Below are positions 10,735-21,838 of a stretch of DNA of 64,000 nt, in pieces (position 1 is the stretch's first letter; every line of letters begins with the position of its first letter). The stretch covers positions 310,001 to 374,000 of the forward strand of contig NZ_CP126625.1 in assembly GCF_030219325.1 (NCBI RefSeq), written 5' to 3'. The translations under genes were made by a program, and so were the position numbers. Below the pieces are notes generated by a model that saw nothing but the letters and a program-made list of their open reading frames with translations, made no database searches and was not told where the DNA came from. Origin of the DNA: Geothrix sp. (GTDB lineage Bacteria > Acidobacteriota > Holophagae > Holophagales > Holophagaceae).

Positions 10735-11121
10735 TTAGGCCCAAGTGAACTTCCGTTCACTGTCTCTGTAATCGATCTTAATAATCTGTAATATATCTGG
10801 CCATGATTCTTGGAAAGTGTAACCCTCGAGCGTATCAAGCACTCCATCTGTGACAAACAAGTTGAACCCAGCACCAGATTCGAGACCATTCATCTGCACA
10901 ATAACATCTGATATCACAAAGTCCTTTCCTTTGAGTAATGATGGAATTGGGGACTTCATGGAAATCTCTAATTTCGTGAAAAACCCAACCCCAGTAGTTT
11001 TTCTTTCTCGATTAACAATATTATTTATTTGATCCTTTAGTAACCCGAGAAGGGGATCATTCCCCTCTACAATTTTGGCTAGAATCAAATTTTCGAAATC
11101 ATCCCACTCAAATTCATTCAT
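10735..11121 (-). CDS. Putative immunity protein of the RHS toxin
   Basis: 128 residues from ATG 11121, with AGGTGA at ideal spacing that overlaps the toxin stop codon region (toxin ends at 11127). Acidic N-terminus (MNEFEWDDFENLILAKIVEGND); beta-rich body ending 'GAGFNLFVTDGVLDTLEGYTFQESWPDILQIIKIDY'. That ending resembles small immunity-like proteins with the 'LEGyTydEpWP' motif. Position directly behind the toxin's C-terminal domain is the main argument. A/T-rich codon use unlike the rest of the operon suggests that toxin tip and immunity gene were exchanged together. Confidence 0.6.
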   Translation of the reverse strand: MNEFEWDDFENLILAKIVEGNDPLLGLLKDQINNIVNRERKTTGVGFFTKLEISMKSPIPSLLKGKDFVISDVIVQMNGLESGAGFNLFVTDGVLDTLEGYTFQESWPDILQIIKIDYRDSERKFTWA

Positions 11122-11126
11122 CAGAT

Positions 11127-14100
11127 TCACCTATAAAATGCGTTGCCGAATACCGGGTTCCCATTAATTACATTGCCAGTGGCTGTAAATATTTGACCAC
11201 CAACGTTAACCGTAACCTCAAATGGACCATTTCCACGTCCTTGGGCTGCTGCTATTGCTGCGTTTTCAATTGCCTGATAAGCCTGAGTTCTATCGCCACC
11301 AAACTGGCTAAGCAGAGCATCGAAGTTATGTCCTCGACCACCGCTAAAAACATGATCTATTGCATTTTGTAATGCACTACTGGCTCTATTCAGGGCATTT
11401 CTCAAATTGCTTGGAACTGGGCCACCACCATCTTCGAACAACTCAAACAGCAATCTCAAACAAGCGACTCTCGCTGCCAGAGAAGGAAGCCTCAGACAAT
11501 TCATGATTGAAGCATCACAAGACGTGAGGCCTTGAAGCCCTAATGGATCAATGTTGTTCAAAGGATTATTGCCAACATATGAATAAACGTTGGAACCGTC
11601 TGGAAGGCTCTCTGCATCGACTGAAGAGATCAATTTCGTGACAACTCCAGCCCGCAGCATCCCCGTGAGCCCAGGTGTAATAAGGCGCGTTGGATTCATG
11701 ATTGGATCCCGACTAATCCAGCGTCCAGCATTCGGGTCATAGGCGCGGTGGAGCGCAAGATTTAGCCCACTCTGCGCATGCCAGAGGTACCCAGTGAGCC
11801 CAAACAAGCTGTCCTTAACGCCCTGGACCTTCGTCAAGCGTCCATAGGGATCGTAGTCATACCGCGCCCTCACGTTCTGGCTCACGTCTACAAGCTCACG
11901 AATCGAGCCTAGGTGATCCCGGGTGTAGAGAAGGATCGTTCCATCGCTATCCACAAAGCCTTGGCTGTAGAAGCGCTTGGTGACGTTGGCGCCTGTGCTG
12001 TCGCGCTCTTCCGCGATCTCCACGCCATCCCAAAGGTACTTCTTGTCGCTCGTAATCTGGAGCGTCTGAGTGGCGTCTGGGTCTTTCTCAATGATCTCGA
12101 CGCGCCTTCCAAGCCCGTCATAACCAAATTCACTTCTGTGCCCAGTGGCAATGATGGTGACGGTAACGAGACGGTTTTCCGCGTCCCACTCGAAGGTTCG
12201 GACTCCATCACTGATGAGGTTCCCGTTGAGGTCGTAGGCCAGAGTCGCGGAATTGGATCCTCCACTCACCACAACCGTGGCCTCATCCTTCACGTTCACG
12301 TCTGCCACGCTTGTTGCGGTCACGGTATAGGTTCCGAAAGTATTCGGAGCTGTGTAGGCCCCCGTGGATGCATTGATGGTTCCGCCTGATGCTGACCAAG
12401 TCACGGCAGTGTTGGCACTCCCCTCCACTATGGCCGTGAACGTGAATTGCGCCCCCTTGGCCAATGAGGTGGCATTTGGACTGACTGCCACAGTGATCTT
12501 CCCAGTCGACACTTGAACGGTAGCGACCGCCGACTTGGTGGGGTCGGCCATACTTGTTGCGACCAGATGGTAGATACCGGGGCTCCCGGGGGCGGTGTAG
12601 TGTCCACCCTTGTCTACGGAACCACCTCCCGTTTCCTGCACTCCCCAGGCCACCCTCTGATCAGTAAAACCCAACAGAGTCGCTGTGAAGGAATGGGCTG
12701 CTCCCGGGGCCAAGCTAATGGAATCTGGTGAGACCTCGACTTCCTTCGGAATCACAACAGAGGCTGTTGCCGAGAGCCCTGAATTGAGTGGGCCCAGCGC
12801 CTGAATATGGAAGAGGCCCGCAGTAAGTGGAGTGGAATAAACCCCACTAGCATTGATGGTGCCGCCACCAGCTTCCTGCACGCTCCAAGTGACCTGAGGA
12901 GATTGATCTCTTGTGTCCCTGGCGATAAAAAGTTGGTTGTACCCGATTGGTAGAACGGTGACGCTGGGATAGATCGACAGTGCAAGCGGTGTCACGCTGA
13001 GGGTGAAGCTAGATTGCACTGATGTCCCGGCGGGATTGGTCACTGTGAGCTGGAAGTTGGTTGTCTGGTTTGGGGTCGCACTTACCACTTGTCCACTGTC
13101 GACACCGAATATTGTGATACTCGGATTGATCTGAATGGAGCCTGTCCCTCCACTGAAAACCCCCTTATAGGTGGTGCTATCGCCCTGATTGATGGGGTTC
13201 TTGAGGGGTGCGAATGAGCTGATCACGGGGAGAGGAAGGATTGGAATCAACTTTGTGGCAGTGGCCTGCACACCACCCAGGTTCGTAACCGTGCAGGTCA
13301 AGGTGCAGGTACCTACTGGCCCAGGAGTAAATACCACAGCGGGGGTCGTGGTCGAGGAAGTGATGGTTCCTCCTGCAATGGACCATGCGTAGGTGCCACT
13401 CTGGTTAGGCACGGTGCAGTTGGCAGAGATGCCCGTCGTCACGGCTGTGGGGGCCGATATGTTTGGGTCGGGAAGCCCGGCAACTGACACAGTCGCTGTT
13501 TGGGTCTGCACCCTGCCAACCGAATTTGCCACGGAGAGGGTGTAAGTTGTCGTTGAGTTAGGCCGGTCCTGAATCGAAAAACCAGAACTGACATTCCAGT
13601 ACCCACCAAGGCTCGAAGTGAGATTCGCTGACGTGCCGACAAACGCCCCAGTCACGGTGACCAAGCCCATACTTGCAACGGTTGTGGGGGTCGCATTCAG
13701 GGCTGTGATCGAAGGATTCGCAATCACAGTGACTGTCTTGGTGGCCGTGGCCTGAACCCCAGCGGCATTGGTTATCGTGCATCCTAGCGTGATGGTTCCA
13801 GGGGCAGCACCAGTAGCAAATGAAAGGGCGTTGGCTGTGGTACTACCGGAGGCCGTTCCTCCGACAATGGTCCAGAGGTAGGTGCATCCTGCCTGATATG
13901 GCACGGAGGCCGTGTAACTCTGAGATGAGTAGCTGTTGATGTAGCTCAGCGTAATCGTGTCATCCGCCTGAATCGTTGCAATCGGGGCAGGAGGAACAGT
14001 GACTGTAGCTGTGCCTGTGGCGGTGATGCCGGCGTCATTTGTGACGGATACGGTATAGGTTTTTGTCTGGGTTGGGTTAATGGTCTTGGCAACACCAGAG

Positions 14101-16670
14101 GTCACGGCACCAACACCCATGTCGATAACGCCGGTTCCGCCCGTAAAGGAGGGGGTGAGAGTTACGGCGGTACCAGGCGTCACATTGGCCGGGGTAGCAG
14201 TGAACGAGTTGATGGCTGGTGCCGCAACACAGGTAGCCGTGTTCGTGAACGTCGATGGAACGCCAGCCTTGGTTACAACACACTGAAGCGTGACCGTCCC
14301 CACCCCCGTAGCCTTGTAATACATCGAGTAGGCTGTGCCCCCGCTGATGATCGTCCCGCCAGTGACGGTCCACACATACGTGCTGGCTGCGTCGTAGGGC
14401 ACTGACGCCCAGGATCCAGTGTCATTGAGCGTAACGGGTGTCTTGAGGGTGATGCCTCCAGGTGAACTGGGATTCACCGTGATATTGACCTGGCTAGTGG
14501 CGGTGATTCCGGCTGCATTTTTTACTACCAGGTAATAACTGATGCTGCCCTTCGGGGAAGCCGGGTACACCGATCCGGAGGCCACGACGCCGCCCCCAGG
14601 AGTTAAGGTGGCAACCCCACCACTAAATGTGGGAGTCAAATTGATGCTCTGGCCGGAGGTGATCGTCGTGGCACTTGCTGTGAATGAGGTGATCAATGGG
14701 GCAGCAACGATTGTTACAGTCGCGCTTCCCGACCGCACCACGCCAGCAGGGCTGGTAATTTGACAGGTGAGCGTACAGGTTCCGACTGAACCAGCCGTGT
14801 AATACACCGTGTTGCTGGTTCCCCCTGAAGTAATGGTTCCACCTACGATGGACCATAGGTATGAGGAACCGCCCACGTAAGCCACTGAAGCTGACTGCGA
14901 AGTGGCCGTAGTTACTGGTGAGGTGGCCGCCACCGTCGAATTGGGCCCGTAAGGATCCACATTGACGGTGACGTTTGAAGTCACTTTGGTCCCTGCCGAA
15001 TTGGTTACAGACAGGTAGTAGGTGTGGCTCCCAACCGGAGTCACTGTCACTCCTGTGCCTGAACTGACCTGACCAAGACCAGAATCGATGTAGCCAACGC
15101 CATTGGCAAAGGATGGTGTCAGGACACAGGACTGACCGGGGGTCAGATTCAACTTGCTTGAAGTGAACGAGGAAATCGTAGGTGGTAGGACGCCTGTAAG
15201 GGTGATGGACTGAGTTTGAAAAACGCCTACCGGGTTTGTGACCTTGCACGTCAAGGTGTAGGAACCCACCGATGGAATTGTGTAGGAGACTGAACTGCTC
15301 GTGGCCCCGCTGGTGATGGTTCCACCCGGCAAGGTCCAAGCGTAGGTGGTCCCAGCCACAAAGGAGTAGGGCACGGAAGCAGAATTACTAACACCCACCG
15401 TGACTGTGGTGGGACCGGAAATTTGGGCACTTGGGGAGGCAGGCACCGTGACAGTAACAGGCTGTTGGATCTGGGTACCGGCAGCATTGGTGACGCAGAG
15501 GGAATAGGAAGTCGTGGCCAATGGGTTGACTGTGACCGAGAACGGACTGATCACCTTCCCTATCCCCCCGCTGATAACTCCATTGCCATTGGCGAACGTC
15601 CCAATAAGCACAGCCGCCCCACCCGAGGCCACATTAGCTGGGGTCGCCGTGTAGGAGACGATCTGAGGTGCGGCCACCACTGGGATAGTGGCCACGCGGG
15701 TGGAAGGAACCCCGTATTGGTTGGTCACTGTAAGAGTGACTGTGCAACTGCCAATCGCGGATGGAATAACGTAACAGTAGTTGCTGGTAGCCCCTGGATA
15801 GGCCGCTAGGGTTCCGCCAGCGACCGACCAGGCCCAGGTACACCCTGCCTGGATAGGTGAGATGGGAGAAACAGTGTTCTGGATACCTGCCGTCAACGCA
15901 GAGGGAACAGAAATGGATGCATCTGGTGGAACCGCAGTCACGGTTGCTGTCGCCGAAACGGAGGTCCCAGCCACATTGGTTACCGTCAGGGTGTAGGTCT
16001 TAGTGGTGGTTGGATGAACAGAAATCGCCACCCCACTTGTAACTGACCCGACTCCTTGATCTATAACCCCCGTACCACCCGAGAAGGTGGGAGTTAAAGC
16101 CAGGGTAACGCCGGCCGGGTAACTACCCTCACCCGTCAGAGAATTAATGCTGGGCGCAGCTACAAGGTTGACAGTCTGGCTTCCCGTATTGGACCCACCA
16201 GCATTGGTCACGAGGCATTGAAGGGTAAGGGTCGCTCCGGTTCCAGCATGAAAATAGGTGGTGGATGAATTGGAATAACCCTGAGCCAGGGTGCCGCCCG
16301 TGATGGTCCATTGATATGTGTTGCCGGCAACATCCGGTACAGAAGCCGCGAGATACTGGGCGCCGACAGTCGCATTGGCAGGTGCCGATATCGTGGCATC
16401 CGGGGCGGCGAATGCCAAGGACGTGGCGGAGTGGAAGCTTGCTGGCACGGCTCCCAGGGATTGGCTTGGTAAACAAAGCATTCCAAGAACCGCGAGTAGA
16501 GCAAACAGGGGGCGCTCTCCTGAGATGGCTCTACCCGTGAGGTGCGCGGAAACCTGATTCACTGAAATCAGACAGTGGGAGTTCTCTTGACTTGGTGTCT
16601 CAACAGAATGCAGTGAGGTCTTCAGCATGAGGAGCCTTAGGAAGTAGAAGGGGGGGATCGAGAGATTCAT
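11127..16670 (-). CDS. Ig-repeat RHS protein with C-terminal toxin tip
   Basis: 1847 residues from ATG 16670 (a TTG at 16712 gives a less likely longer form). N-terminal hydrophobic stretch 'LFALLAVLGMLCLPSQSLGA' looks like a signal or anchor. Next are seven tandem copies of a two-module Ig-like unit of about 185 residues, marked by 'TY-W-I-GGT' and 'TYTLTVTN-AG', then three BIG2-like modules ('LA-GA--FTA…AVTWS…GGTINAS'). The RHS core follows: 'YDLNGNLISDGVRTFEWDAENRLV', 'RDHLGSIRELVD', 'YDPYGRL', 'NVYSYVGNNPLNNIDPLGL'. The last ~140 residues after 'DPLGL' are a variable tip (HNFDALLSQFGGDRTQAYQ…FGNAFYR), a presumed toxin of unknown activity. Contact-dependent or released antagonism is the usual role. 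Confidence 0.82.
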   Translation of the reverse strand: MNLSIPPFYFLRLLMLKTSLHSVETPSQENSHCLISVNQVSAHLTGRAISGERPLFALLAVLGMLCLPSQSLGAVPASFHSATSLAFAAPDATISAPANATVGAQYLAASVPDVAGNTYQWTITGGTLAQGYSNSSTTYFHAGTGATLTLQCLVTNAGGSNTGSQTVNLVAAPSINSLTGEGSYPAGVTLALTPTFSGGTGVIDQGVGSVTSGVAISVHPTTTKTYTLTVTNVAGTSVSATATVTAVPPDASISVPSALTAGIQNTVSPISPIQAGCTWAWSVAGGTLAAYPGATSNYCYVIPSAIGSCTVTLTVTNQYGVPSTRVATIPVVAAPQIVSYTATPANVASGGAAVLIGTFANGNGVISGGIGKVISPFSVTVNPLATTSYSLCVTNAAGTQIQQPVTVTVPASPSAQISGPTTVTVGVSNSASVPYSFVAGTTYAWTLPGGTITSGATSSSVSYTIPSVGSYTLTCKVTNPVGVFQTQSITLTGVLPPTISSFTSSKLNLTPGQSCVLTPSFANGVGYIDSGLGQVSSGTGVTVTPVGSHTYYLSVTNSAGTKVTSNVTVNVDPYGPNSTVAATSPVTTATSQSASVAYVGGSSYLWSIVGGTITSGGTSNTVYYTAGSVGTCTLTCQITSPAGVVRSGSATVTIVAAPLITSFTASATTITSGQSINLTPTFSGGVATLTPGGGVVASGSVYPASPKGSISYYLVVKNAAGITATSQVNITVNPSSPGGITLKTPVTLNDTGSWASVPYDAASTYVWTVTGGTIISGGTAYSMYYKATGVGTVTLQCVVTKAGVPSTFTNTATCVAAPAINSFTATPANVTPGTAVTLTPSFTGGTGVIDMGVGAVTSGVAKTINPTQTKTYTVSVTNDAGITATGTATVTVPPAPIATIQADDTITLSYINSYSSQSYTASVPYQAGCTYLWTIVGGTASGSTTANALSFATGAAPGTITLGCTITNAAGVQATATKTVTVIANPSITALNATPTTVASMGLVTVTGAFVGTSANLTSSLGGYWNVSSGFSIQDRPNSTTTYTLSVANSVGRVQTQTATVSVAGLPDPNISAPTAVTTGISANCTVPNQSGTYAWSIAGGTITSSTTTPAVVFTPGPVGTCTLTCTVTNLGGVQATATKLIPILPLPVISSFAPLKNPINQGDSTTYKGVFSGGTGSIQINPSITIFGVDSGQVVSATPNQTTNFQLTVTNPAGTSVQSSFTLSVTPLALSIYPSVTVLPIGYNQLFIARDTRDQSPQVTWSVQEAGGGTINASGVYSTPLTAGLFHIQALGPLNSGLSATASVVIPKEVEVSPDSISLAPGAAHSFTATLLGFTDQRVAWGVQETGGGSVDKGGHYTAPGSPGIYHLVATSMADPTKSAVATVQVSTGKITVAVSPNATSLAKGAQFTFTAIVEGSANTAVTWSASGGTINASTGAYTAPNTFGTYTVTATSVADVNVKDEATVVVSGGSNSATLAYDLNGNLISDGVRTFEWDAENRLVTVTIIATGHRSEFGYDGLGRRVEIIEKDPDATQTLQITSDKKYLWDGVEIAEERDSTGANVTKRFYSQGFVDSDGTILLYTRDHLGSIRELVDVSQNVRARYDYDPYGRLTKVQGVKDSLFGLTGYLWHAQSGLNLALHRAYDPNAGRWISRDPIMNPTRLITPGLTGMLRAGVVTKLISSVDAESLPDGSNVYSYVGNNPLNNIDPLGLQGLTSCDASIMNCLRLPSLAARVACLRLLFELFEDGGGPVPSNLRNALNRASSALQNAIDHVFSGGRGHNFDALLSQFGGDRTQAYQAIENAAIAAAQGRGNGPFEVTVNVGGQIFTATGNVINGNPVFGNAFYR

Positions 16671-16680
16671 TGTTCGAGCC

Positions 16681-19600
16681 CTACTTGACTTCGGCGGCAG
16701 AAGCCTTCGCAACCGCCAAACGTTTGGCAGCCTCAGGACTCCTTCGTGGTGGTTTGGTCTTACTCCCCGGCTGTTTGGATTTTCCGCCAGGCTTTGTGAT
16801 CATGGGCGTCGCGCTATAGGTTTCCCCCGTAAGCTGGTTGAGGTTGTTGAAGGTCGAAGCCGTCGTCGCACCGTTGATTTGCGATGTCGTGCGATTCCCA
16901 GCCTCGTCATAGCCATATCCGTACGCAATCAGGACGGATTGAGTCACCGCGTCGGTCTGAGTGTTCGACAGGATCTGACCCACCGCATCATAGGTGAAGG
17001 TATTCACCTTGGGGTTCTGTGCATCCGCCTGAGTGGTCCAGGTCTGAATCTGGCCGTTGGCATCATAGGAGTAGCTGAATGCTGAGATGTTCGTTCCATT
17101 TGCCTTCTGGTTCTGAATCGATTGAAGTCGCTTGTCTCCGCTCGCGCTGGAATAGCCAAACACTGTGCTTTGACCATTCGGCAGCGCAATGTTTTGAAGA
17201 CGGTTTGTGGGCCCATCAAACGTATAAGTGAAAGTGCCAAGCGGATTGGCTACAGTGCTCATGCGTCCGAGGACATCTAGGGTGCGGGTCTCGTTGATGT
17301 CATTGATTCCCCGAGTGGTGACCCGACCAAGCGCGTCATAGCCATAGGTGATGGTGCTATTGGCCAAGGGGCCGGTGACACTCGCCAATCTACCGGCACC
17401 CAGGGTTGGAGTAGAGGTGATTGGATTGTATACGTAGGTAGTCGTTCCCAATCCACCTGTTGAAGTGGCAAGCCGATTGAAACGACCATCGTATGTGTAG
17501 CTCACATTCGGCGTGGGCTTGCTGGTGTTGGAATAGGTCACTGCAGCCAGGGCGTTGTCCTGGTAGTAACTGTACTTGGTGACCTGAGCCTTGGCGTCGA
17601 TTCGCTGAGCAAGACGACCGATCGCGTCATAGGCGTATTGCAGACTTGTCAGGTCAGGAAAAATTTTTCCGGTCACGCGCCCCTGAATATCCCTCACCCA
17701 TGATGTGATCTTCCCTTGGGGATCAGTCAGACCATCTAGCGTTCCACACCCACACCAGTCGAGACGAGTGATGCGCCCTTGAGGATCCTGCACACTGGTG
17801 AGTTGTCGGCTTGCGTTGTAGGACATCACGGTCCAGCGCCCGAGCCGGTCCTTTGTTTTCCACGCATCCAGCCGATCGAAAAGCGTTTCCTCGGTGGTGC
17901 CGTCTGGGTAGGTAATCGTGGTTCGGCGATCTAAATTATCGTAGTCGTAGGTCAGAGTGTAATTGTCGGGTTGATTCGTGACTGTTTTTACACGCCCCAC
18001 GAGATCATATGTAAAGGTTGTGATCTGTTGACCCGCATTCAGCAGCGGGCCTTTCACGTTCTGAAGGTATCCGTTCAGGTCATAGGTTAGGGTGGTGACC
18101 TCCGATTTCGGATTGGTGATGGTCAGGATCTGGCCGAAACCGTTGTAAGTGAACGTGGTGGTTTGCCCAGCTGCATCGATTGTGGTCAGCGGTTTGTGCT
18201 GAGTGTTGTAGGTGTACTTCGCGAGGAGGTCATCAATCCCGCCAGTGAGGTTGTGAACCTCCAGCAAATCGATGCCATCCGTGGAGTAGACATATGAAGT
18301 CACCCTCCCCAGCGGGTCAGTGACCTGGGTGGGCTTCCCAATGGTGTTGTAGGTGGTGAGGGTCGACTGGGTGCTTAGGTCATCCAGAATCCGCAATACG
18401 GCACTCGGACTAGATATGGTTCCCATCTCCTGGGAGTTTGCCTGACCGGCCTGTAGAAACCAGGTCCTAGACTCTAGTGGTTTCTTTTCCCAAGACGGGA
18501 CCGAATTCAGCCAGCCTCCAGGTGAGTACACCCAATGAGTGATCTTGGCCTTGGTGTAGTCGCCCGGATAAATCTCCATGGCTCTCTTATCCCAGTAATA
18601 GGAATTAAAGAACCAATGCCCTGTATTAACCACTCCGACTGGCGCCACAGGATCTGACAAGGGGAGACTGCTGACCAGGCCGACATATTCACTGCGTTCC
18701 TGATCCCCAGAAGGGTCCGTCGCAAGTATCCAAGTATTGTTCGCCGCACCATTGCCACAAGCGAATGTGCTTGTGCCATAGGGGGTGGTCATGCCGTTGA
18801 TGAAATCGGCAGCCATCGCCGGGTTCTGGGTGGTCGGCCCATAGCTGAACGTCGTGGTTATTCCCAATGCATCCGTGATGGATTCCAAAAGGCCAGACGC
18901 TGTATAGGTCATGCTTGCCGTTCGACCGAAGGGGTCCGTGACTAAGGTGACTTTCTTGGGATCTCCTGCCAACCCGTAGGAAAGGGTTGTCACCTGGCCC
19001 AAGGCATCGGTGACGGTTGTTAGACGGCGCTGGGCATCGTAGCCGTAAGTCACTGTGTTACCCGATGGGTCGATCGATCTTGTCCGGAACAGGGTCCGAG
19101 GCGCCACGATCGCCCCATCGGTCAGATCGTAGATGTCGCTGCTTCCATCCCGGTGAACCACCTTGTAGGAGGAGGCTGAGGTCCGGACCAGCTGATCCTG
19201 ATTGAAGTAGTCCGGGGCATAGGTCTGGGTGAGAGTGTTGTAGCCAACCTGGGCTTTCATGCCCCCGCTGGCTGGGAGTAGCTTCACCGTCTGGCCTACT
19301 GTCGTCGGATCATCGGTGAGAGTAAGAACCCAATCAAACGCCCATTTCGGTCCTAGGTTTGAGTAGGTATAGGTGGCCGGCTGATCGGCGTTCTTACTGT
19401 TGTAGGTGAGAGTAAGGGCGATCTTTTGTCCACGTGGAGGCGTGTAGGAAACTGGAATATCGTTGAGCAAAAGAGCCGAGCTGAGCGTGTTGAGCTGAGC
19501 CACCGGCATTCCGGTGCAGGCTGGTGCGAGATTTTCGGGAACAGGTGCATGAGGGTCCGCGGCGGTTCCACCGCCACAGGAGTCACCAGCCCATATCCGT

Positions 19601-20571
19601 GCCGCTTCAGACTCGGACACCGAGTGCCATCCAACTGGAAGTTGGCCATTGGGAATGAGAGCGTAACCAGAGCTTTCCTGGTTCAGAGTGGCTTCATGAA
19701 TCCACCTCTCCCCTCCGAAGAGTGAGTCCCTCACAAGAAGCATCCCATCGCGCTTTTGAATTACGGCCACAAAGTGGCCGAGGCTCAGGTGCACCATGGC
19801 TGGAGTTGACCATTCCTGCCCAGTCTCTCGATGGGCCATTTGGAGATTCAACTTTCGAGCATTTGCCATTCGCCAGTTCTGCAACAGGGAGGTGCCATCG
19901 GTTTCGATGGGCATTGCCAGAATCGAGCGATCCAACGGCATCCCTGAATGAATTTCTCGCTCAAGCACTGAAAGTGCCATCGGACCGCATTTCAAACCTG
20001 ACCTGGGATCTGCCGCCAACCCGTCCAACACGGTCCGCGCAAAGGCCAGCTGAGTAGACGGCTTGCCGTGAACCGGTCCAGACCAACCATCGACTACTTG
20101 GAGGACGTTCTGAAGATCCTCCCTCCTCCCTAGGTGGCTCAGAAGCTCCGCATAAGATCCGGCAATTCGATTCAGGAGCATCCGTGAACTGGACCTCTGA
20201 TCAGCACGAGCCAAATTCCATGCCTTGACCCAGTACTCGAGACTTCGAGACACCTGCCCTGCCTCTAGGGCCATGTCCGCCAGATTGGCGCACAGCGAGG
20301 CATTCCAACTCGAGTGAGGGTAGGCTCTCAGAAATGGGTCCAACGCTTCAGTACTGGACTTACGTCGGCATTCACCCAGCGCTGCCAAAAGCGCTCTGTT
20401 TTCGACTTCGGAGGGAATCGGTCCAAGGGGCATCAAAGGTTCCCCGAAGACGCTCGCAGCTTGCACTTGTGTAAGGCCAACGGATACCGTTAGGCCCACC
20501 TGGGCTCCCTGTCCCGATAAGGGCGCAATCAACACAAGACCCCAGAATTGGGAAGTCCCTCGGCGCATCAT
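16681..20571 (-). CDS. RHS-repeat protein with N-terminal C39-like peptidase domain, no RHS core
   Basis: 1296 residues from ATG 20571, preceded by GGAGAG; the TTG at 20631 is unlikely. Signal peptide, then a TPR-like helical region (to ~residue 190), then a C39/papain-like domain with C195 (KCGPMAL), H266 (LGHFVAV) and D282 (LVRDSLFGG). From ~residue 380 to near the end run YD/RHS repeats (SYGLAGD…YDLNGYL…YDAIGRL). The protein stops with a basic tail (TKPPRRSPEAAKRL) after 'YDEAGNRTTSQINGATTASTFNNLNQL' and has neither the RHS core nor a toxin tip. Those are encoded by the next gene, 10 bp downstream, whose RHS part begins where this one ends. The pair may act together as a split RHS shell. 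Confidence 0.82.
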   Translation of the reverse strand: MMRRGTSQFWGLVLIAPLSGQGAQVGLTVSVGLTQVQAASVFGEPLMPLGPIPSEVENRALLAALGECRRKSSTEALDPFLRAYPHSSWNASLCANLADMALEAGQVSRSLEYWVKAWNLARADQRSSSRMLLNRIAGSYAELLSHLGRREDLQNVLQVVDGWSGPVHGKPSTQLAFARTVLDGLAADPRSGLKCGPMALSVLEREIHSGMPLDRSILAMPIETDGTSLLQNWRMANARKLNLQMAHRETGQEWSTPAMVHLSLGHFVAVIQKRDGMLLVRDSLFGGERWIHEATLNQESSGYALIPNGQLPVGWHSVSESEAARIWAGDSCGGGTAADPHAPVPENLAPACTGMPVAQLNTLSSALLLNDIPVSYTPPRGQKIALTLTYNSKNADQPATYTYSNLGPKWAFDWVLTLTDDPTTVGQTVKLLPASGGMKAQVGYNTLTQTYAPDYFNQDQLVRTSASSYKVVHRDGSSDIYDLTDGAIVAPRTLFRTRSIDPSGNTVTYGYDAQRRLTTVTDALGQVTTLSYGLAGDPKKVTLVTDPFGRTASMTYTASGLLESITDALGITTTFSYGPTTQNPAMAADFINGMTTPYGTSTFACGNGAANNTWILATDPSGDQERSEYVGLVSSLPLSDPVAPVGVVNTGHWFFNSYYWDKRAMEIYPGDYTKAKITHWVYSPGGWLNSVPSWEKKPLESRTWFLQAGQANSQEMGTISSPSAVLRILDDLSTQSTLTTYNTIGKPTQVTDPLGRVTSYVYSTDGIDLLEVHNLTGGIDDLLAKYTYNTQHKPLTTIDAAGQTTTFTYNGFGQILTITNPKSEVTTLTYDLNGYLQNVKGPLLNAGQQITTFTYDLVGRVKTVTNQPDNYTLTYDYDNLDRRTTITYPDGTTEETLFDRLDAWKTKDRLGRWTVMSYNASRQLTSVQDPQGRITRLDWCGCGTLDGLTDPQGKITSWVRDIQGRVTGKIFPDLTSLQYAYDAIGRLAQRIDAKAQVTKYSYYQDNALAAVTYSNTSKPTPNVSYTYDGRFNRLATSTGGLGTTTYVYNPITSTPTLGAGRLASVTGPLANSTITYGYDALGRVTTRGINDINETRTLDVLGRMSTVANPLGTFTYTFDGPTNRLQNIALPNGQSTVFGYSSASGDKRLQSIQNQKANGTNISAFSYSYDANGQIQTWTTQADAQNPKVNTFTYDAVGQILSNTQTDAVTQSVLIAYGYGYDEAGNRTTSQINGATTASTFNNLNQLTGETYSATPMITKPGGKSKQPGSKTKPPRRSPEAAKRLAVAKASAAEVK

Positions 20572-20725: not shown

Positions 20726-21838
20726 ATGGTTTCCATAGTTGCCCTGTTTCTCGCCTTCTTACCCATTGCCCAGGGAACTTCAGGCGGGCCGACTGCGCCT
20801 GGAGGGGCTTCGGTCAAAGAACTGGTCTCCGTTCAGAGACGGGTGACCGTCAAGACGCTTGTCGGTCAACCCGGCTGGCCTGGAGCTGTTAACGGACCGA
20901 CCAGTTCCGCCCTGCTTTTTGAGCCCCATGGTGTGGCGGTGGGCAACGACGGTACGGTCTATATCTCAGAGGCTGGCAACCATGCACTCCGCCAATTCAC
21001 ACCAGATGGCATCCTTAGGCCGTTGGCAGGTTCCCTCGGGCGCGAAGGTGGCCAGGATGGGAGTGGGGGAGAGGCTAGATTCTATTTACCAAACAGCCTG
21101 AGCATCGACCACAAGGGCAATCTTTTTGTGGCAGATCTCGCGAATCACGCCGTCCGCAAGATCACGCCCAAAGGCGTGGTCACCACCTTTGCTGGGAAGC
21201 TGAGGGCCCTTGGAGATGCGGATGGCCCGGCGTCAGTGGCTCGGTTCAACCGTCCCCACGGCATCGCGGTTGGGGATGATGGCACGGTTTACGTCACCGA
21301 CGCTGTGAACCACACCATCCGCAAGATCACCCCTGATGGGAGGGTTGTCACGGTCGCAGGAAAGGCACTGCACCCTGGCTCAATGGATGGAGTAGGAACT
21401 GAGGCCCGATTCCTGATGCCGTTCGCCATCGCCGTAGATCGAAATGGGACGATGTTCGTCGCGGATCGTGGAAATGATGCCATCCGGAAAATCACACCAG
21501 ATGGCGTCGTCACGACCTTAGCCGGCAAGCTCGGTGTCCCTGGGACGAAAGATGGGCTTCGTGGTGAAGCACGGTTCTCCAGCCCGCGTGGCATTGACAT
21601 CGACCAGAATGGAAATCTTTATGTCGCAGACTACGATAGCTGTCTGATTCGGATGGTCTCACCAGAAGGGCTTGTCACCACCTTGGCGGGAAAGGGGTAT
21701 GAAGCGGGAAGTGCCGATGGATCTGGTTTGGAAGCACGCTTCAAGGGCCCCCACGGGATTACGGTCGACACCAAGGGGCGTGTTTTCGTCGCGGACTCCG
21801 ACAACCACCTCATCCGAATGTTGATTCTAAACGACTAG
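20726..21838 (+). CDS. Secreted NHL-repeat beta-propeller protein
   Basis: 370 residues from ATG 20726 with AAGGA upstream. Signal peptide MVSIVALFLAFLPIAQG; then six NHL repeats of ~56 residues with the pattern 'P-GIAVD-NGT-YVAD--NH-IRKITPDG-VTTLAGK', i.e. one full six-bladed propeller. Such domains bind proteins or glycans outside the cell; no enzyme residues are evident. It is divergent from the RHS operon across a 154-bp AT-rich gap (20572-20725) that must hold both promoters, including a TTGACC near 20671. It may belong functionally to the RHS locus, but only position suggests that. Confidence 0.8.
   Translation: MVSIVALFLAFLPIAQGTSGGPTAPGGASVKELVSVQRRVTVKTLVGQPGWPGAVNGPTSSALLFEPHGVAVGNDGTVYISEAGNHALRQFTPDGILRPLAGSLGREGGQDGSGGEARFYLPNSLSIDHKGNLFVADLANHAVRKITPKGVVTTFAGKLRALGDADGPASVARFNRPHGIAVGDDGTVYVTDAVNHTIRKITPDGRVVTVAGKALHPGSMDGVGTEARFLMPFAIAVDRNGTMFVADRGNDAIRKITPDGVVTTLAGKLGVPGTKDGLRGEARFSSPRGIDIDQNGNLYVADYDSCLIRMVSPEGLVTTLAGKGYEAGSADGSGLEARFKGPHGITVDTKGRVFVADSDNHLIRMLILND

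Follow-up and report, generated by a model that had tools for sequence, protein, structure and literature searches.

The two genes considered here lie on the minus strand of a 64,000-nucleotide stretch of Geothrix sp. DNA (the window: contig NZ_CP126625.1, positions 310,001 to 374,000), which belongs to a genome of 3.73 Mb assembled as one contig. Gene A (16681..20571) encodes a barrel protein and gene B (11127..16670) a stalk, a lid, and a toxin-like tip; together they are a real, conserved variant of an RHS toxin in which the cocoon is divided at the seam between barrel and lid and an adhesin stalk is placed on the lid. The open reading frame (ORF) of A is open from 20631; the ATG nearest its start is at 20571 and translation places the stop codon at 16681-16683, giving a protein of 1296 residues from this ATG or 1316 from the ORF start. 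A signal-like N terminus is followed by a TPR-like region (20107..20394, limits set by eye) that is kept in both split and fused homologues, a C39-like peptidase domain (19654..19995) with CGP, GHF, and D motifs, and the RHS barrel (16831..19512), which was identified by a match to RHS_repeat (PF05593, E 3.8e-50) and by a structure model. It should be noted that the TPR-like part has no Pfam match in A itself, the label being taken from the corresponding region of a homologue (L049, described below), which matches TPR_2 with a score under the cut-off. The C39-like domain, which the initial annotation had placed in the first half of the system, was confirmed by a match to Peptidase_C39 (PF03412) with E 5.1e-5 and 23.6 bits (cut-off 22) for the segment 19486-20100 scanned alone; among 13 aligned proteins its Cys is present in 12 and the His in all 13. 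C39-type peptidases are named among the domains of polymorphic toxins in the available text of Zhang et al. (PMC3482391). At the C terminus of A, the RHS block YDEAGNR...NNLNQL, ending '...YDEAGNRTTSQINGATTASTFNNLNQL', is followed by a basic and proline-rich tail of 49 residues (16684..16830), 11 of which are Lys or Arg and 6 Pro.

The frame of gene B is open upstream of its first ATG (16670), which lies 10 nucleotides from the stop of A, and encodes 1847 residues from this ATG or 1861 counted from a TTG. The two sequence blocks that the initial annotation quoted as the end of the upstream protein and the start of the downstream RHS part are both present in the translations, and the signal-like segment, 14 Ig-like modules, and 3 BIG2-like modules that it described in the second protein were recovered by a hydropathy scan (hydrophobic segment, 16473..16508) and by motif counts of 7 + 7 + 3. 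In the Ig-like array (12990..16406), seven PKD-type modules alternate with seven of a second Ig type, the former being matched by Pfam PKD in three stretches, and the BIG2-like modules (12237..12986) adjoin the lid. Big_2 has no Pfam match in this B, and the BIG2 call rests on the motif and on the modeled last module, which matches Big_2 structures with a Z of 12.7. The lid, or autoprotease core (11535..12236), is identified by Rhs_assc_core (TIGR03696, 56.5 bits against a cut-off of 32.5) and by structure; it ends in PLNNIDPLGL, retaining the PxxxxDPxGL autoprotease motif with RDP upstream, and the RHS repeats of B match PF05593 with E 5.5e-7. The lids of two related genomes, G051 and G034, have variant motifs without the exact PxxxxDPxGL pattern. 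The window lid has ∼30 additional residues upstream of the cleavage motif, between RDPI and NVYSYV, that are found in none of the aligned lids reaching there. The toxin-like C-terminal tip (11130..11534), of 135 residues, is placed after DPLGL; it has no relatives at E 1e-4 among 296 further genomes sampled from the phylum and none in plasmids, and by inspection the tips vary from genome to genome, one having a weak PLA2-like match under the cut-off. Judged from its repeats, core motif, and differing tips, the locus is an RHS polymorphic toxin.

The position of the gene boundary relative to solved cocoons is suggested by models of the two parts. The barrel model of A (896 residues; predicted local distance difference test score, pLDDT, 84.8; predicted template modeling score, pTM, 0.74) matches Rhs cocoons with Z up to 26.6, and a 462-residue model of the last BIG2-like module, lid, and tip (pLDDT 75.9, pTM 0.53) matches cocoon ends with Z up to 20.4, with ten-residue pLDDT means of 87-97 across model residues 101-260 and most of the BIG2-like module. 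In Tse15 (8uy4), A corresponds to residues 333-1140 (Z 20.8, root-mean-square deviation (rmsd) 3.4, 733 aligned) and the lid to residues 1143-1395 (Z 17.1, rmsd 2.7, 196 aligned). In TcdB2-TccC3, A corresponds to 58-1949 and the lid to 1951-2191 (4o9x) or to 23-1915 and 1917-2157 (6h6g); the ends of these matches count but their shape does not, because the rmsd for A is 16.5 and 17.8, respectively. The corresponding ranges for A and the lid are 302-1098 and 1128-1420 in RhsA, 35-815 and 840-1076 in 8qja, 360-1161 and 1197-1420 in 8qjb, 48-866 and 921-1168 in 8cp6, and 151-870 and 928-1134 in RhsP (8h8b). Profile matches on the RhsA chain (7q97) place the barrel at 288-1107 and the lid at 1069-1289, with a loose repeat register because the last barrel stretch there corresponds to profile positions 496-760. 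Since the separate models and profiles cover neighboring parts of the cocoon, the gene boundary is the boundary between barrel and lid within the limits of profile and model matches. In RhsA, as described in the available text (PMC8765631), one end of the cocoon is sealed by the conserved C-terminal region, which spirals inward and is the aspartyl autoprotease, with catalytic residues Asp1324 and Asp1346.

Of the 77 family genomes that were searched for gene A, seven carry a split A (G000, G018, G034, G051, G052, G053, and G054), including one of the same genus as the window genome (G034). Each of the seven A ORFs stops 9-58 residues past the NNLNQL-type block, and a K/R-rich tail is present in six (8-11 Lys or Arg within 39-58 residues). 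The stalk gene lies directly behind A in all seven, its first ATG 5-95 nucleotides after the A stop, and all seven B genes have a hydrophobic stretch near the start (12-residue mean of at least 1.8); with the same order in seven genomes, the arrangement is beyond chance. The stalk-borne lid was found in all of these genomes except G054, and the stalk before it ranges from about 1400 residues (G000) to 2660 (G051). In G051, another one-contig genome, A has 1262 residues and the B frame 3061, with six LamG stretches, Ig/BIG2 modules, the lid, and a different tip. The contigs of G052 and G053 break within B, but the contig carrying A and the one carrying the lid share exactly 101 and 141 bases at their ends, respectively; in G018 and G034, the A contig ends in the stalk and a separate contig, without exact overlap at the ends, runs from stalk to lid. 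The A contig of G054 also ends in the stalk, and its own B lid is unseen because the sole lid found there (L047) is an orphan cassette without a stalk upstream. An assembly or sequencing artifact is ruled out by the one-contig genome together with the six further genomes that have the split. Lid matches were obtained in nine of the 77 genomes, the seven split ones, G056, and G062 (54 residues with a stop). The Ig/BIG2 end of the stalk matches 66 of the 77 genomes, split-bearing ones included, so capture of the stalk from local adhesins is possible on sequence grounds; a stalk domain taken from G018 is shared by six B genes, that of G000 being the exception, and two additional genomes have it as well.

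In the wider phylum, the lid was found in 16 of 396 genomes, seven of the window's family and nine from five other families, and in those other families it is part of a single chain or of an orphan ORF. Single ORFs of 1521-1801 residues (the shortest cut by a contig end) from G136, G279, G229, and G311, and three from G125, align with A over the TPR-like part, C39 domain, and barrel and continue into the lid, with a barrel-lid spacing of 7-12 residues, or of 75 where a small domain intervenes. A scan of genomes of named species gave at least 79 loci, at least 28 of them with the TPR/C39 part (score >150); among the matches listed, these were 21 fused loci, five split loci (G034, G052, G018, G054, and G053 again), and two broken in metagenome-assembled genomes (MAGs; L099 and L117), and the remaining 51 of the listed loci, which are other RHS types or are cut before the TPR part, were left uncounted. 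With four fused proteins added (three from G125 and one from G311, scores 253-394), there are at least 25 one-chain proteins from other lineages as compared with seven split ones; the unsplit form for which the initial annotation had proposed a search in related genomes was thus found. Among the fused proteins, 13 have no insert (≤12 residues) and 12 have a small domain (spacing about 75-83), the class of L087 and L090, which run into the contig end, being assigned from residues past the seam. The statement that the two blocks directly follow each other in ordinary RHS proteins therefore holds for the first class but not for the second, in which a small Ig-like domain lies between them. Of four seam domains scanned, that of L091 matches Glucodextran_B, which we take to be an Ig-like fold, above the cut-off (2.7e-10), those of L074 and L087 match it slightly under the cut-off, and that of L070 matches only He_PIG at 0.098. 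The one-chain architecture crosses phyla, as it is carried by L114 and L115 in contigs labeled Betaproteobacteria and Pseudomonas citronellolis. A tree of 33 barrels places all seven from split proteins on one side of a branch with support 100/100; the split requires one change, whereas 4 are required for the small seam domain and 5 for its absence; the seam insert has therefore been gained or lost several times and the seam opened once, as far as seen. The one-chain TPR-C39-RHS proteins of Acidobacteriota, Verrucomicrobiota, and others have the domain order seen here, with direct homology over the TPR-like, C39, barrel, and lid parts, but they are unsplit, with the seam empty or holding one small Ig-like domain, whereas Geothrix has all four parts in two genes. 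The unsplit homologues and the single split group among fused ones in the tree bear out the earlier view that one ancestral polypeptide was divided, with the stalk placed on the half that has the core and toxin, and suggest that an ancestor of these Holophagaceae had a one-chain TPR-C39-RHS toxin, which became divided at the barrel/lid seam.

Lids and barrels have diverged to different extents in the split group. Pairwise figures cover five of the seven split genomes (10 pairs; G054 was left out and the G052 lid lies over two contigs) and 13 of the at least 25 fused proteins (78 pairs). Mean identity among split pairs is 0.75 for the lid versus 0.50 for the barrel, with a ratio of at least 1.3 in 9 of 10 pairs, whereas among fused pairs both are 0.44 and such a ratio is reached in 7 of 78; the contrast is a hint, because the two sets differ in taxonomic breadth. 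Inclusion of the orphan G054 lid (L047) gives means of 0.70 and 0.49. The ends expected to be in contact show no decay by this measure: in the same 10 pairs, the last 60 residues of the barrel have an identity of 0.51 as compared with 0.49 for the rest, and the first 60 of the lid 0.74 as compared with 0.75. Agreement at four-fold sites is 0.43 for lids and 0.31 for barrels in the split group and 0.29 and 0.36, respectively, in the fused group, indicating that both are near saturation with a slight lid excess. The high identity of the lids may mean that they serve as a uniform joint for exchangeable parts or that lids have to some extent been exchanged, and recent gene conversion of lids may be a cause.

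Two genes that give one RHS cocoon are known from the Tc toxins, in which TcB and TcC combine and the second carries the lid, autoprotease, and variable toxin, an arrangement that is proposed here for A and B. The Geothrix cut, however, lies ∼450 residues later than that between TcB and TcC, because the lid matches residues 451-690 of YenC2, and unlike the Tc proteins, B carries a signal-like segment of its own and, ahead of the lid, a long stalk, and A has TPR-like and C39 parts. No β-propeller or SpvB region was matched in A by Pfam at E 0.1; the start of the modeled barrel is, however, similar to the N-terminal domain of SpvB (Z 12.9 across 193 residues). From the position of the cut, the locus is probably not a Tc toxin, though it would work in the manner of TcB and TcC. 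Rhs effectors of the type VI secretion system (T6SS), such as RhsA (7q97) and Tse15 (8uy4), share the barrel, inward-spiraling lid, and PxxxxDPxGL autocleavage, but, from the text available, they are one chain, with a PAAR domain in RhsA (PMC8765631); neither PAAR nor VgrG was matched in A or B in Pfam or NCBIfam at E 0.1. The bacterial teneurin-like proteins likewise form RHS cocoons, have predicted signal sequences, and carry added adhesion modules, BIG among them, but, as far as the accessible text describes them, are one chain, with N-terminal adhesion modules and FN-plug and NHL domains (PMC13018210), and no NHL, FN-plug, or teneurin domain was matched by Pfam in A or B at E 0.1. On these domain comparisons, the locus is neither a T6SS Rhs effector nor teneurin-like. 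The literature searched, which left most subscription papers and preprints outside its scope, contains no description of a two-gene stalked RHS toxin in the text available, and no papers on Geothrix with Rhs or on Holophaga with RHS repeat were found in it.

By analogy with TcB and TcC, A and B should form one cocoon, and joint assembly of the two proteins is likely; this precedent and the complementary structural coverage make reassembly of the halves, which the initial annotation suggested to happen outside the cell, the best reading. Our preferred interpretation, to which we assign a probability of roughly 0.64, is a two-chain RHS toxin in which the two proteins assemble in trans into a single cocoon, with the stalk emerging at the seam. 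Several observations weigh against it. The barrel and lid models were compared with the PDB separately, as single chains, and the lid model has a pLDDT of only 39-54 over residues 271-330, which include the cleavage motif, and of 45-75 in the tip. Between the A and lid matches, 13-57 residues are left in several cages overall (24-57 uncovered in RhsA, 8qja, 8qjb, 8cp6, and 8h8b), and in teneurin-2 (6fb3) and the bacterial structure 9ifo, the two matches overlap by 29 and 41 residues, respectively; RHS repeats are interchangeable, which makes the register of both profile and model matches uncertain. The A protein of G051 has only 9 residues after the block and is without the basic tail. Barrel and lid divergence are moderately correlated (r 0.54 over 10 non-independent pairs), which is too weak to use. 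Neither the tip of B nor the 131-residue protein encoded by an ORF that overlaps the end of B by 4 nucleotides (10735..11130, minus strand), which from its position is probably the immunity gene of this toxin, matches a Pfam or NCBIfam family. Finally, there are lid genes without a barrel: a 524-residue protein of G053 (L049:5571-7142, contig C3), encoded beside A and B, has a signal-like start and a TPR-like part like that of A, followed directly by the lid and an SLT lysozyme-like tip; a gene of G056 (L048:6528-7408, contig C84) runs from a TPR-like part to the lid before it is cut by a contig end, and no A was found in this 300-contig MAG; and the orphan lid-toxin cassette of G054 (L047:1943-3091, contig C151) lies behind small ORFs on a 3.2-kb contig. 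We infer the assembly, rather than observe it, because the models are of single chains, the lid end is poorly modeled, and shell-less lid-toxin genes exist. According to the available text of PMC11067744, orphan TcC can use a shared TcB, as YenC3 does YenB; by analogy, the shell-less lid-toxin genes may borrow the shell of A, or they may need none.

These same shell-less genes, together with the finding that most of the lid models well by itself, are what would be expected if B functioned alone, its long surface stalk presenting a short lid and toxin in the style of contact-dependent toxins, and A were an independent shell with another job. This is unlikely, since the stalk gene lies directly behind A in all seven genomes, A keeps its barrel-end sequence, and the lid in solved cocoons is part of a larger cage. 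The initial annotation had regarded homologues in which the second gene stands alone as telling against a divided toxin; every stalked lid in the family (six genomes) is accompanied by A, but there are also lid-toxin genes that have neither stalk nor shell. An adhesion assembly with an empty, teneurin-like cocoon is less probable still: the lid also matches teneurins, and bacterial teneurin-like proteins carry adhesion modules (PMC13018210, from the text available), but the autoprotease motif and the differing tips point to a released cargo and teneurin domains are not matched in the window's A or B. Joining of A and B into one giant chain by frameshifting or stop read-through is very improbable, because, although the B frame overlaps the end of A in G000, G051, and G052 and in G034 is the A frame, open right past the TGA of A, so that a read-through product is conceivable in G034 alone, it opens only past the A stop in G053, G018, and G054, the A stops are TAG (three), TGA (three), and TAA (one), and all seven B proteins have their own hydrophobic N-terminal segment; with no shared frame relation, such a mechanism is ruled out as the general case. 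Decay of a toxin gene that was broken in two and is being lost has equally little to recommend it, for although G051 has, ∼9 kb downstream of its B lid, orphan lid-toxin pieces whose frames are broken (L050:9550-12007), A is open in seven diverged genomes and the stalk gene is open as far as the contigs reach, and since open frames persist though five barrels share only 0.46-0.55 identity, the split state is old and kept.

If A and B form a two-chain toxin as we propose, the lid-toxin half would have gained an export signal of its own and an expandable adhesin array, the signal-like segment and the array being visible in the sequence and export being the conjectural part. From the Rhs and Tc precedents, A would fold as a barrel and the lid of B would dock on its open end, completing the cocoon in trans with the toxin inside, after which the aspartyl autoprotease of the lid would free the toxin within the cocoon. 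The Ig/BIG2 or LamG stalk would exit at the seam, the place where many fused relatives hold a small domain, and may hold or aim the cocoon at a surface, and exchange of the B gene would change toxin and stalk together while A was untouched. A more detailed version, which includes the suggestion that the halves reassemble outside the cell, is tentative and somewhat less probable than its negation: two inert halves would be exported, A and the stalked B would meet after export, the lid would close the cocoon in trans, and a stalk that differs between species (PKD/Ig, BIG2, or LamG) would pick the target surface. If this is correct, one A could receive its cargo from several B-type genes or mini lid-toxin genes. 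The Geothrix system would differ from the Tc toxins in where it is cut and in having gained, at the seam, an arm for aiming. How the toxin enters the closed shell of an RHS cocoon, and when the shell is sealed, are general questions for these proteins, and the occurrence of separate lid and barrel chains beside unsplit relatives of the same order makes closure testable by mixing.

Other features of the locus and its relatives were noted. A gene with NHL repeats and similarity to teneurin NHL (20726-21838, plus strand) is divergent from A and starts ∼155 bases from its first ATG. In the scan of the tip of B and the 131-residue protein, a match to acetyl-CoA hydrolase (0.026) was under the cut-off and was taken as chance. 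Three split genomes have an extra A-like gene upstream of A (L024:4105-6585 in G051, L029:4765-7422 in G034, and L026:5624-8629 in G018), which matches A only to about query residue 730-902, that is, over the N-terminal part and the first RHS part. Two other whole RHS genes of ∼1900 residues are present in the same genome as the window (L009:5448-11171 and L010:4797-10466); they start unlike A or B, and by eye their bodies are alike but their tips differ, that of L009 being one that we take to resemble a peptidoglycan peptidase.

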